Part shown: positions 29,510 to 34,967 of the stretch, piece after piece
Layout: each line of letters begins with the position of its first letter
How positions within the stretch are numbered: position 1 is the first letter of the stretch
DNA from: a virus
DNA length: 35,724 nt
Strand: one strand, 5' to 3'
Virus record (IMG/VR): IMGVR_UViG_3300027969_000240
Coordinates: 1-35,724 of that record
Notes under the pieces: generated by a model
What the model was told of the DNA's origin: nothing
The model's database searches: none
Seen by the model: only the letters and a program-made list of their open reading frames with translations
Position numbers and translations under genes: made by a program

Positions 29510-31582
29510 TCAAACTGATGCCACAAACGGCTCATCTTTGTCACCATCGCGGTAGATCACCCAGCAGTAATTCGCTACATCAGTCTCGTGATACCCGACC
29601 AGCTTCTTGGCAAACATCGCCTTCTTGCCACGGTAAAAGTCACTGTCAATGGACTTGCTATCACCCTTCAGCTTGGCAAATGCCTCTTTCCACTCTGATA
29701 CAGATACCGTCTTGTGGCGCTCCTCACCGACATTTGTCATATGCCCATTCTTATTTAGTGCGTCGTGGATTGCGTCTAAGGCCGCCTGCTGGTTTTCCTG
29801 CAGCTTGCGTGGTTTGGCCTGGCGCTCTACGGCCTGCTGCTGCATCTCCTGATTTAGCGCCTCGTCACTCGCCCTGACCGCCAGGCTGATCTGGGCGTCA
29901 GCAATGCCCAATGCGCTGCCCTTGATCTCCACCTTGACCATCTCAAAGCCTATCTTGACGCCTGTCTCTCCGTCCTTCTGTTTTGACACCGTGAGGATGG
30001 CTGAACCCGCTACGTCACTTGCTGGGTTGGGCGTTGCGTCAACCTTCATAAGTTCTAGCTGGGTGTCCACGGCGCCGAGTAGCGAACTATGCCCCCGCAA
30101 TCCCTTGGTGGCATCCTTCCCGCTGTGATGCAGCACCATCATGGCGCAGCCCAGCATCCTCTGAATCCTTCCAGCGTTGTGGATAAACGCTCCCATGTCC
30201 TCGCTGTTGTTCTCGTTGCCCCCGCCAAACGCCCTGGCTAAAGTGTCGATCTGCACCAGTTCAAACTGGACGCCGGTCTTCTCCATCAGGTCCTTGATCG
30301 AGGCCACCAGCAGATCGAAGTCCTCGGCGCTCGATCTCATGTTGATAGCTGCCCTGATGACGTAGATCTCGGCTCCAGCTTGCGTGCGGTTGTGCATCTT
30401 GCAGGCCTTGATCCTTGCGCCGATGCCGCCAAAGCCTTCCCCACAGATGTAAAGCACCGCACCGGCCGCCTGCACCTCCCGCCCCATCCACGGCCTGCCC
30501 GTTGCCACCGCCTCGGCAATATCCAATGCAACGAATGACTTGTAGCTGCCTGGTGGACCGTATAGGGCGCAGAATGCACGCTTTGGCAGGACGTCTTGGA
30601 TCAGCCACTCCACCGGCTCATCCTCGATGTCATCCCAAGATTCAATCTTGAGCAATTGCCGTGGGACCAAGATGGGTGGCTCTTGTATATCAAAGTTATC
30701 GTGGTCTACGGTAACTTCGGTAGTTTCCCGTGGAACAATCCACTCCGGCGGCTGCACCTGGTCTATGTCGGTGATGACGGGCAGCGCTTTAGCTAACTCT
30801 GCCAACCTGGCCCGATCCCCGCCATCCGCTACCCACTCATAGGCATCATCCCCGAGTTCGGGTAAATTGAAGTCGAGGACTCTGACCGCCTTGGCTACAG
30901 GCAGCAGCGCCTCCACCACCCGCTTTGCGTACTTCCATCCTGGTGCGTCGCAGTCAGGAACCACTATCACTACAGCGCCGACAAAGTATTGGGTGATGTC
31001 ATCAGGCCAGTGGCCTGCACCAGCGTGGCTCGTTGTGGCAATGGCTCCGATGCTGACCAGGGCATCCGCCGCCTTCTCGCCCTCCACCAAGTAGATGGCA
31101 CGTCCAGCCTCCCTGGCGTTGATGAGTTCCGGTAACATATATGGTACTATCCGCGCCCCTGTCATGCTACCCTTGCGGTTCCCCGCGGCATCCACCTTAT
31201 GCAAGCTGTACGTCTTACCTTTTTCAGAGTTCACTTTGAACCGGCGCTTTACAAATAGGGTTTCGCCTTGCTCGTCCTTGTACTCCCACTCGTTCTCCAA
31301 CTGCGGCATCGTCATCAATTCACCTTTGATAAGCGCGAGACTGTACTCCTGGCGCTGGAGCGCTGGCAATAGGTTGCGTTCTCTGACTGCGTCAAATACC
31401 GAGTGCTGGTCGCAGCCGCCGTGACAATGGAATAGGTACTTACCATTGTCTTCCTTGATGGAGAGACTCGGGTTCTTGTCCCCGTTACCGCGCCCGTGAC
31501 CAGCCACAGGGCAACTCGCAAGCCAGTTCCCGTTCACCTTCTTGGCGTTGCCCAGGGCTTTGGCTATTGTTTCAGTGTCCAT
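29510..31582 (-). CDS. Bifunctional primase-helicase (CHC2 - Toprim - RepA/RecA-like)
   Basis: 690 aa from ATG 31582 with CAGGAG 8 nt upstream; a longer frame overlaps the methyltransferase. Order: CHC2-type zinc site (CPVAGH at 24-29; HCHGGC near 53-58), Toprim (YLVEGEKAADAL near 165; VVIVVPDCDAPGWKYA near 205), then an AAA_25/RepA-like ATPase with Walker A GPPGSYKS (about 350) and FELVQIDTLARAFGGG as Walker B. Primes and unwinds DNA at the fork. A fourth TGTGGATAA (30178-30186) lies inside the gene and may be chance. Confidence 0.8.
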   Translation of the reverse strand: MDTETIAKALGNAKKVNGNWLASCPVAGHGRGNGDKNPSLSIKEDNGKYLFHCHGGCDQHSVFDAVRERNLLPALQRQEYSLALIKGELMTMPQLENEWEYKDEQGETLFVKRRFKVNSEKGKTYSLHKVDAAGNRKGSMTGARIVPYMLPELINAREAGRAIYLVEGEKAADALVSIGAIATTSHAGAGHWPDDITQYFVGAVVIVVPDCDAPGWKYAKRVVEALLPVAKAVRVLDFNLPELGDDAYEWVADGGDRARLAELAKALPVITDIDQVQPPEWIVPRETTEVTVDHDNFDIQEPPILVPRQLLKIESWDDIEDEPVEWLIQDVLPKRAFCALYGPPGSYKSFVALDIAEAVATGRPWMGREVQAAGAVLYICGEGFGGIGARIKACKMHNRTQAGAEIYVIRAAINMRSSAEDFDLLVASIKDLMEKTGVQFELVQIDTLARAFGGGNENNSEDMGAFIHNAGRIQRMLGCAMMVLHHSGKDATKGLRGHSSLLGAVDTQLELMKVDATPNPASDVAGSAILTVSKQKDGETGVKIGFEMVKVEIKGSALGIADAQISLAVRASDEALNQEMQQQAVERQAKPRKLQENQQAALDAIHDALNKNGHMTNVGEERHKTVSVSEWKEAFAKLKGDSKSIDSDFYRGKKAMFAKKLVGYHETDVANYCWVIYRDGDKDEPFVASV

Positions 31583-32288
31583 TGTTAGACTCCTGCTGCT
31601 GAGAGAATTCGCCAAGCGGTTGCGGCGCACAATGGGACTTGTCCATTTCCAATGGCTTTAAGTCTGTCCACCCTAGCGGCCACCCCATCAGCCATTCGTA
31701 CAGGTTCGGGTTGATTGAATGAGGTATCCAGGTTCCATTCTCTTTTGCTATGCGCCTTCCATTTGCCCCGCCTGCATTGCCGCCGCCTTCTGAGGCTTTG
31801 GGAGTTGGCCACAATCCAGATTCTGTCCCTCTGATGGTTTGCTCCAACGTCCGCTGCTCCCAGCACTCCCCATCTCGCATCAAACCCCATTGAGGCCAGG
31901 TCTCCGAGAACTCGTCCAAGCCCCCGAGAAGTGAGCATTGGGCTGTTCTCCACAAACACGAATCGGGGTCGTACCTCGCGAATGATGCGTGCCATTTCTC
32001 CCCACATTCCGCTGCCTTCTCCGTCGATCCCTGCGCCCTTACCCGCTGCGCTAATGTCTTGGCATGGAAAACCTCCCGATACAACGTCAACAATTCCTCG
32101 CCACTGGTTTCCGTCAAAGGTTTGTACGTCATCCCATATCGGGAAAGGCGGGAGAAGTCCATCATTTTGTCGGGCGCACAATACGCTTGCGGGGTAGGGT
32201 TCCCACTCAACGGCGCAGACTGTGCGCCATCCAAGGAGTTTTCCTCCGAGTATTCCTCCACCAGCGCCTGCGAATAAAGCCAGCTCAT
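31572..32288 (-). CDS. Overprinted ORF inside the C5-methyltransferase gene (LWPTP / EWLMGWPxGW protein)
   Basis: 238 codons open in another frame of the same strand, starting at ATG 32288, only 4 nt after the methyltransferase ATG, and ending inside the first codons of the primase gene. The predicted protein has CGEKWHASFARYDPDSCLW (95-113), LDEFSETWPQWGLMRDGECW (124-143), ESGLWPTPKASEGG (156-169) and EWLMGWPLGWTDLKPLEMDK (198-217). I recall these motifs from stand-alone phage proteins annotated near DNA methylases. Both readings of the same DNA are therefore motif-bearing: either real dual coding, or a widespread family of alternate-frame annotations. Not settled. Confidence 0.45.
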   Translation of the reverse strand: MSWLYSQALVEEYSEENSLDGAQSAPLSGNPTPQAYCAPDKMMDFSRLSRYGMTYKPLTETSGEELLTLYREVFHAKTLAQRVRAQGSTEKAAECGEKWHASFARYDPDSCLWRTAQCSLLGGLDEFSETWPQWGLMRDGECWEQRTLEQTIRGTESGLWPTPKASEGGGNAGGANGRRIAKENGTWIPHSINPNLYEWLMGWPLGWTDLKPLEMDKSHCAPQPLGEFSQQQESNNGH

Positions 32289-32292
32289 TCAT
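31585..32292 (-). CDS. DNA (cytosine-5) methyltransferase
   Basis: 235 aa, compact. Motif I LFAGAGGGILGG (6-17), catalytic motif IV GGFPCQDIS with C77, motif VI VENSPML (E115), motif VIII QRDRIWIVA (about 154-162), a short target-recognition segment, and motifs IX/X with RLKAIGNGQVP (210-220). All catalytic motifs are intact. It probably methylates phage DNA against host restriction. A second long ORF overlaps it completely (31572-32288). A terminator lies just upstream at 32319-32350, so expression needs read-through or its own promoter. Confidence 0.85.
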   Translation of the reverse strand: MNELALFAGAGGGILGGKLLGWRTVCAVEWEPYPASVLCARQNDGLLPPFPIWDDVQTFDGNQWRGIVDVVSGGFPCQDISAAGKGAGIDGEGSGMWGEMARIIREVRPRFVFVENSPMLTSRGLGRVLGDLASMGFDARWGVLGAADVGANHQRDRIWIVANSQSLRRRRQCRRGKWKAHSKREWNLDTSFNQPEPVRMADGVAARVDRLKAIGNGQVPLCAATAWRILSAAGV

Positions 32293-32318
32293 ATTCTCAC
32301 TTTCATTATTTTTAGAGG

Positions 32319-32364: not shown

Positions 32365-32940
32365 TTAGAAAAACTCTTCATCGTCCATCACGGGTGCAGG
32401 CGCTGGCTTGGCCTTGCGTACAGGCGCTGGTGCTGGCTCTGGCTCAAACTCGTCAGCGCCGTCGGAATTCATGCCTGCGGGACGCGTTACCCACGACACC
32501 AGCTTGAAGTTTGGCACTCGCGTGTTGCCCTTGCCAACCTTCTCGGCGGTAGAGTTAACGTACTCAATAACCGGCAACTTGCCGACGTTATCGCCTGCAG
32601 CTTTGTCGGCCTCGTTGTAGATCTTCTCGAAACCCTTGCAGACTCCATAAGAATTAGCCGACCAATCGACAAGGCCGAGTTCCTTCGAGTACAAGGTCAC
32701 TACAAACCCGCGCTTGTAGCCCTCCCCAGGTGATTGGCTCTTAGCGCCCAGCACCTCATCAGGCTGCCAATCGCGTACACCGGCGCCAATCATCAGCCAG
32801 CCGGTCTGCACCGAGTCCAAGTCCATGACCACTTTCTTGAGTTGGATTTCCTCACCGTCGCGGTTAGTCCAAGCGTTAGCCTGTGGTGCAAAGCGGATGT
32901 AAGAGTTACCCGATCCATTGTTGTTTGAAAGATTCAGCAT
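32365..32940 (-). CDS. SSB-like ssDNA-binding protein
   Basis: 191 aa. The core (SYIRFAPQANAWTNRDGEEI; VVMDLDSVQTGWLMIGAGV; KRGFVVTLYSKELG) looks like the OB-type phage ssDNA-binding family, and the tail is Pro/Ala-linked and acidic, ending MDDEEFF with aromatic residues as in SSB and T7 gp2.5. The tail would recruit replication partners. AGGAAACTG precedes the ATG. A strong terminator follows. Confidence 0.65.
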   Translation of the reverse strand: MLNLSNNNGSGNSYIRFAPQANAWTNRDGEEIQLKKVVMDLDSVQTGWLMIGAGVRDWQPDEVLGAKSQSPGEGYKRGFVVTLYSKELGLVDWSANSYGVCKGFEKIYNEADKAAGDNVGKLPVIEYVNSTAEKVGKGNTRVPNFKLVSWVTRPAGMNSDGADEFEPEPAPAPVRKAKPAPAPVMDDEEFF

Positions 32941-34030: not shown

Positions 34031-34233
34031 TTTTCTCTCTCTCTTTCCAATTCATTGTTGATGATGATGTATGCCTGTTGCCTGACTTCGTTGGTAACCG
34101 AGTGACCCAGGTCATCAGGGTCCAGCAGGCGCTTTAGCAGGACAGTCTTGTCGCGTGATGATTCGCGCTCCTTCTCCAACTGAGTACCCAGCCAGATGAT
34201 GTGTTCGCGCATGGTGCGTAGTTGGTCAAGCAT
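34012..34233 (-). CDS. 73-aa coiled-coil protein
   Basis: ATG 34233 sits in a TGATG overlap with the methyltransferase stop. MLDQLRTMREHIIWLGTQLE then ESSRDKTVLLKRLLDPDD and NELEREREKW. Almost entirely helical and charged. No recognised family. May associate with the neighbouring nuclease. Confidence 0.55.
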   Translation of the reverse strand: MLDQLRTMREHIIWLGTQLEKERESSRDKTVLLKRLLDPDDLGHSVTNEVRQQAYIIINNELEREREKWNGSN

Positions 34234-34967
34234 CACAAAAGGCTTTCCTGTGTTTGCGTTTCCATATCAACCTCAAACAATTTACCTTGTGCGACTTCTC
34301 GTTCAATACGTTTGCAGGCAATGTCAAAGTATTTAGGTTCACGCTCTATGCCGATAAAAGATTGCCCCAATTGGATTGCACCTAATCCTGTTGTTCCACT
34401 TCCCATAAATGGGTCTAAAACAGTTGCATTCGGTGGAACCCATTGACTTAAAACATGACTCACTTGATCCAATGGTCTGGGGCATGGATGGCCTCTCTCT
34501 AAATTTGATGCTTGCCCTACAACTGGTGCAGTATTGGCAACATGAAAATCCCTAGTCGCAGTGCCTGCGCTCCACGGCTTACCACCATCAACCCACCAAA
34601 CGATTACCGGATCAAATGACCATTGCATTGCCGTTGGGCGCATCTGTACAAAATTCTTTGCGGCAACAAATAGCCGCCAATCTCGTGGGAACCGTTTAGA
34701 AAATTGGTGCATATGAGTGCCTGACTGCCATATAAATATCGGAGCACCTGGCACGCACTTTTTTTCGCACTGCTCAATAATTCCCATCAGCCAAGTATCG
34801 TAACCACCCTCATATGCCTCTGGACGATCATCGTGGTTTTCATATTTGAACCCAACACCATAAGGCGGGTCAGTAATCACAGCATCCACCTTGCCAAGCG
34901 TTGGCAAAATGTCCATGCAGTCGCCGCAGTACAGCGTTGCGTTTCCAATTTTTACAGGGTCAAGCAT
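34233..34967 (-). CDS. DNA N4-cytosine/N6-adenine methyltransferase (beta type)
   Basis: 244 aa. Catalytic motif DPPYG (33-37) comes first and the SAM-binding DPFMGSGTTGLGA (about 186-198) last, the order of beta-class enzymes. DPPY with FxGxG fits adenine (N6) or cytosine (N4); which one cannot be told here. With the C5 enzyme it makes two DNA methyltransferases, suggesting layered anti-restriction protection. Overlaps the resolvase gene by 8 nt. Confidence 0.85.
   Translation of the reverse strand: MLDPVKIGNATLYCGDCMDILPTLGKVDAVITDPPYGVGFKYENHDDRPEAYEGGYDTWLMGIIEQCEKKCVPGAPIFIWQSGTHMHQFSKRFPRDWRLFVAAKNFVQMRPTAMQWSFDPVIVWWVDGGKPWSAGTATRDFHVANTAPVVGQASNLERGHPCPRPLDQVSHVLSQWVPPNATVLDPFMGSGTTGLGAIQLGQSFIGIEREPKYFDIACKRIEREVAQGKLFEVDMETQTQESLL

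Follow-up and report, generated by a model that had tools for sequence, protein, structure and literature searches.

Two overlapping reading frames at a methyltransferase locus

The window analysed here is the 35,724 nt of the IMG/VR virus record IMGVR_UViG_3300027969_000240, which encodes a terminase, a portal, an exonuclease and a primase-helicase. On its minus strand lie two ORFs that overlap almost entirely, a 235-aa frame at 31585–32292 with the core of a C5-cytosine methyltransferase (which we refer to as alpha), and a 238-aa frame in +1 relative to it at 31572–32288, the LWPTP/EWLMGWP protein (beta), which is open in homologues and under purifying selection. The start pair ATGAATG occupies 32286–32292 (minus strand), with the alpha ATG at 32290–32292 and the beta ATG at 32286–32288, and a Shine-Dalgarno-like GTGAG (32296–32300, minus strand) is found 3 nt 5' of the alpha start and 7 nt 5' of the beta start. 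Alpha matches PF00145 (E 5.5e-31) and phrog_363 (E 2.9e-64), its profile matches M.HhaI and M.HaeIII, and it possesses the catalytic motifs I–VIII of C5-methyltransferases, including PCQ and ENV/ENS, as judged from Pfam, alignment and the M.HhaI match; motif X (GNGQVP, 31633–31650, minus strand) was located by sequence reading and alignment. Beta matches PHROG family 1008 (phrog_1008, E 1.1e-22); against Pfam it gave no family match and no HNH or other domain, and searches in PDB and PADLOC gave no match. A variable region between alpha motifs VIII and X (31714–31809, minus strand) is read in the beta frame as WPTP (31800–31811) and the subsequent module, and a motif-IX-like signature, INPNLYEWLMGWPLGW, was found in the beta frame at 31668–31712 (minus strand) by pattern match.

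The initial annotation had described an intact 235-aa methyltransferase frame and a 238-codon ORF on the same strand with starts 4 nt apart, and this is borne out, its interval of 31572–32292 being the union of the two. Its readings of motif VIII (QRDRIWIVA) as ESGLWPTP and of motif X (RLKAIGNGQVP) as TDLKPLEMDK in the beta frame were likewise confirmed.

The pair is neighboured by an unannotated 191-aa ORF on one side and by the primase-helicase (minus strand) on the other. The beta ORF extends 13 nt beyond the alpha stop and covers the likely ATG of the primase-helicase; in 31572–31630 (minus strand) this gene probably starts at the ATG at 31582, within the beta tail, such that it would overlap the end of beta. 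The 191-aa protein (32365–32940, minus strand) is without a PHROG match and has an acidic DDEEFF tail, as in phage single-strand DNA-binding proteins. A second methyltransferase-like gene (phrog_67), unrelated to the pair, is present nearby at 34233–34967 (minus strand).

Openness of the second frame

Homologues on viral contigs (52 distinct genes, 64–97% identity) were retrieved with the methyltransferase protein only, and because of this the sample is unselected for the second frame. The +1 frame of these 52 genes was uninterrupted along most or all of its extent, usually 230–290 codons, with stops confined to the two ends, against a mean of 6.6 stops expected after within-gene shuffling of synonymous codons, whilst the +2 frame of the same genes had stops as expected or worse. 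From motif I to motif X, 0 stops were observed versus 137 expected in the 29 genes of clade 1, and 0 versus 158 in the 59 genes of clade 2, a very distant group of the QCHFFAGIGVW...GSCPCQPFS type that was fetched with its own methyltransferase. Ordinary dcm-type enzymes (seven, from 299 Pseudomonadota genomes, found with the same profile) served as a control and exhibited 89 stops versus 100 expected in the same interval. The question of whether the second ORF stays open across divergent C5-methyltransferases is thus answered in the affirmative in two clades, and among close homologues frequent stops, named at the outset as what would speak against the frame, did not occur between motifs I and X.

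These counts bear on whether the open frame could have arisen artefactually from composition, codon use or common ancestry, which we regard as scarcely credible. Such an explanation draws on the G+C-rich relatives L266, L269 and L270, where less than one stop is expected in the +1 frame and openness in these clade 3 relatives is therefore uninformative, yet it is opposed by the synonymous shuffles, by the dcm-type control, by a control with flanking genes (below) and by the agreement of two distant clades; for both main clades a composition artefact is refuted. In the third clade (L266, L269, L270, L272 and L273), most members of which are too G+C-rich for the stop test, the +1 frame also reads WLY...WPTP...NPxFVExLMGWPxGWT. 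Taken together, the comparisons indicate that the second frame is a real, conserved protein-coding gene.

Selection on both frames

Among the four-fold degenerate sites of alpha, several do not vary at all in 72 viral genes, whilst others vary freely. The invariant codons include Ala5 GCT, Gly11 GGT, Pro118 CCA, Gly136 GGG and Gly203 GGG (each 72/72) and Ala205 GCC (69/69). In a home-made count of the OLGenie type, using independent close pairs and a bootstrap over pairs, beta exhibited a dNN/dNS of 0.43 [0.36-0.51] and a dSN/dSS of 0.30 [0.25-0.36] in clade 1, and values of 0.64 and 0.36, respectively, in clade 2. As a control, 21 flanking gene pairs from the same contigs were treated as if they carried a +1 gene, and these fake frames gave a dNN/dNS of 0.86 [0.83-0.93] and a dSN/dSS of 0.67 [0.59-0.80]; the exact ratios are approximate, owing to relatedness among the sequences and to a slightly greater divergence of the flanking pairs. 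The overlapping-gene selection test proposed in the initial annotation thus found fewer changes at methyltransferase synonymous sites, and the ratios indicate that the alpha and beta frames are both under purifying selection, to a degree that the fake +1 frames are not.

A motif-IX-like signature and the probable recognition region

In C5-methyltransferases the target-recognition domain and motif IX share a chain with the other motifs and are located between VIII and X. A slightly relaxed motif-IX pattern, L[TNS]P-x5-L[MQ]G[FWL]P-x2-[WFY], was found in the beta frame of 52/72 clade 1 and 62/70 clade 2 loci, with approximately none remaining after synonymous shuffling, and in the alpha frame of 0/72 and 0/70, respectively. 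Canonical enzymes exhibited the pattern in their own frame in 13/20 cases and in the +1 frame in none. The pattern was devised after the beta sequence had been seen, and a virtual alpha-beta-alpha splice searched against Pfam did not extend the PF00145 match; for these two reasons we call the beta signature motif-IX-like.

The selection signal is distributed differently along the two frames. In the alpha frame there is strong constraint on the catalytic part (dNN/dSN 0.15), and motif X is constrained in both frames. Across the variable region of clade 1, alpha is neutral (dNN/dSN 1.15 [0.94-1.40]) and beta is constrained (dNN/dNS 0.41 [0.29-0.55]); in clade 2 beta is only mildly more constrained than alpha (0.68 versus 0.89). 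Comparing the variable regions of clade 1 with those of clade 2 gave 2549 matches at E<1e-3 in the beta frame versus 47 in alpha and 60 in the third frame, and below 1e-8 there were 152 in beta, none in alpha and one in the third frame. Beta contains one to five WPTP modules, mostly ca. 28–36 residues apart, which the two distant clades have in common, and most clade 1 pairs have unrelated variable regions, even at >90% identity in the catalytic part. Such uncoupling of the variable region from backbone identity is as expected of exchangeable target-recognition cassettes.

In profile–profile comparison of beta between the clades, the C-terminal 40 columns and the modules alone stand out; homology of the whole of beta was dropped as a claim, as shuffled controls scored equally high. 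The AlphaFold model of beta was of low confidence (pLDDT 48) and is uninformative, because the alpha control was as poor (50). From the position of the motif-IX-like signature and the pattern of constraint, beta probably holds the DNA-recognition part missing from alpha.

Beta could also be a real overprinted protein with a role other than methylation, for example an anti-restriction or regulatory factor. The lack of a known domain in Pfam, PADLOC and PDB and a first ~150 residues that resemble nothing known are consistent with such a role, yet the motif-IX-like end lies in beta where alpha has no motif IX, the variable region is neutral in alpha and constrained in beta, and among the full-length matches examined beta was never found intact without the methyltransferase frame, which together make a separate function unlikely.

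Start region and ribosome site

The two starts, 4 nt apart, form ATGAATGAG, which was present in 72/72 aligned viral loci. Among 201 distinct loci, codon 2 of alpha was AAT, the codon that creates the beta ATG, in 190, whilst AAT makes up 40% of the other Asn codons. The spacing of G-rich Shine-Dalgarno sequences in these 201 loci peaked at 3 nt to the alpha start, equal to 7 nt to the beta start. Another ~30 loci have TTA, CTT or TTT as first codon, with alpha beginning upstream (MEQLNELALF..., encoded as ATG GAG CAG TTA AATGAG), and in many of these loci GGAG or AAGGAG occurs within the first codons of alpha, 6–7 nt before the beta ATG. In one subgroup beta may start ca. nine codons earlier, still with MSWL.S. 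The Shine-Dalgarno spacing and the internal GGAG sequences therefore suggest that the ribosome site is set for the beta frame. A start pair with a common ribosome site, which the initial annotation had thought unusual, thus appears to be present, there being one Shine-Dalgarno-like site and a geometry that is kept in relatives.

At overlapping AUGUG/GUGUG starts, a short Shine-Dalgarno spacing rules out the 5' start to the benefit of the 3' one (PMC9841429). The rnpA/rpmH genes of Thermus (5'-AUGGAUG-3') are a start pair with a single Shine-Dalgarno (PMC9841429), and they resemble alpha and beta in having two starts 4 nt apart, one Shine-Dalgarno site and nested genes on the same strand (PMC9841429). 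They differ in that the Thermus products are unrelated and were both shown to be expressed, whereas here the geometry and the predicted site are known from sequence.

Relative to motifs I–VIII, both the recognition region and motif IX are read in the +1 frame, as would be the case if programmed frameshifting downstream of motif VIII led into the beta frame and so fused the catalytic and recognition parts in one protein. However, the catalytic half alone (5' of motif VIII) also contained 0 stops in the +1 frame, versus 82 (clade 1) and 53 (clade 2) expected, beta retains its own ATG with a spaced Shine-Dalgarno, and the fusion would lose motif X, such that we consider frameshifting highly improbable.

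Occurrence and annotation

A scan of genomes with the second-frame alignment recovered 67 loci, in almost all of which the two frames were open and equally offset; they come from Pseudomonas, Acinetobacter, Pantoea, Desulforhopalus, Phycisphaerae, Omnitrophota, Verrucomicrobiota and others. Annotated phages with the pair include Salmonella epsilon15, Burkholderia BcepC6B, Pseudomonas Haboob and the mycobacteriophages OwlsT2W and Spikelee, in the last two of which the second frame opens ~26 codons in. Clade 2 alone matched 199 phage records. Hundreds of viruses and prophages retain this double coding.

One of the two frames is usually annotated; in Xanthomonas phage PhiXhv-28 both are, each as a DNA methyltransferase. 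The families phrog_1008 (beta) and phrog_363 (alpha) match two readings of the same genes, and PHROGs keeps them as separate DNA methyltransferase families without noting the two-frame relation. Of the two origins offered in the initial annotation, a conserved alternate frame that has been widely annotated therefore agrees with the databases. Overprinting on dcm-type genes with later separation finds no support, there being no separated full-length LWPTP gene among the matches examined, and the description of LWPTP proteins as free-standing phage families was not borne out either. A phrog_1008 search of 20 carrier genomes and of 294 Pseudomonas-related genomes, 12 of which gave a match, together with 70 distinct clade 2 loci, found no stand-alone LWPTP gene, and every full-length match examined overlies a methyltransferase frame, the exceptions among LWPTP matches being decayed remnants (L252 and L261) and a chance match (L253).

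Several individual loci depart from the common arrangement. The bacterial loci L171, L181, L185 and L198 have an in-frame stop in alpha and an intact beta, possibly through decay of alpha with beta retained, or as early pseudogenes. A frameshifted copy in L252 (1096–1826, minus strand) joins the N half of alpha and the C half of beta in one ORF. The divergent locus of Desulforhopalus singaporensis (L234) has two in-frame TGA codons in beta, as judged from the phrog_1008 match, and a methyltransferase ORF of 288 codons.

A proposed split methyltransferase

Beta carries the motif-IX-like signature and the recognition region that are absent from alpha, and for this reason the two look like parts of a single split enzyme rather than unrelated proteins. 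We consider it likely that the locus encodes a C5-methyltransferase split into alpha and beta, the overlapping frame supplying motif IX and the recognition region. Alpha (frame 0) would form the catalytic core of the cytosine-5 DNA methyltransferase and bear motifs I–VIII and X, and beta (+1) would supply the target-recognition region, in the form of one to five WPTP modules, and then motif IX. Both chains would be made from one mRNA, with a single Shine-Dalgarno site serving both starts and best spaced for beta, and would assemble into the active enzyme. We infer from the sequences that both frames are translated, that alpha associates with beta and that the choice of DNA target falls to beta. 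The wider family may well be a large and old group of phage C5-methyltransferases with exchangeable recognition cassettes in the +1 frame of their own catalytic gene, in which cassette exchange would act on beta, alpha would read the same DNA as a neutral linker and the shared ribosome site would set the subunit ratio.

To our knowledge, double-stranded DNA phages very rarely contain same-strand gene pairs that overlap by 230–390 codons and are conserved in lineages of viruses and bacteria alike. As databases list the frames as separate families, either reading may be named methylase or hypothetical protein. If the split-enzyme reading is true, phage methylation specificity will not be predictable or reproducible from the methyltransferase ORF alone, and alpha genes cloned alone will appear inactive. 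The locus also offers a natural test of one DNA segment serving two proteins, with motif X constrained in both and the recognition region neutral in one and constrained in the other.

Comparison with known systems

Heterodimeric C5-methyltransferases of the M.EcoHK31I kind include M.EaeI. The beta subunit of M.EcoHK31I is 176 aa, and this small subunit is reportedly encoded in an overlapping alternative frame (Lee, Kam and Shaw, in 1995). The large subunit of M.EcoHK31I carries motifs I–VIII and X, motif IX is found alone in the smaller polypeptide, and the predicted recognition domain is described in alpha, not beta (PMC3404938). M.AquI, a C5-methyltransferase divided after motif VIII (PMC3404938), shares with the present pair its two-chain make-up; unlike M.AquI, whose beta has motifs IX and X and half of the variable region, motif X here is in alpha.

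Within phages, an out-of-frame HNH endonuclease lies inside the methylase gene of mycobacteriophage ShiLan (PMC11855218), the only case we found in the literature on overlapping frames in phage methyltransferases. It is similar in placing a second frame within a phage methylase gene, but in ShiLan this is an inserted mobile HNH element, whereas the alpha/beta overlap runs the full length of the gene itself and involves neither an insert nor HNH. A homing insert of that type does not match what is seen here, beta having no HNH or Pfam domain and there being no insertion.

The closest known enzyme is M.EcoHK31I. As in that enzyme, the large chain has motifs I–VIII and X without IX, motif IX lies in a second chain (here by pattern, not by Pfam profile), and the second chain is in an overlapping frame, as is reported for M.EcoHK31I. 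M.EcoHK31I belongs to a restriction-modification system, whereas the alpha/beta genes are phage-borne and widespread; beta here covers almost all of the alpha gene, 4 nt separate the starts and the recognition region is apparently in beta. The extent of the overlap, the geometry of the starts and the placement of the recognition region look new.
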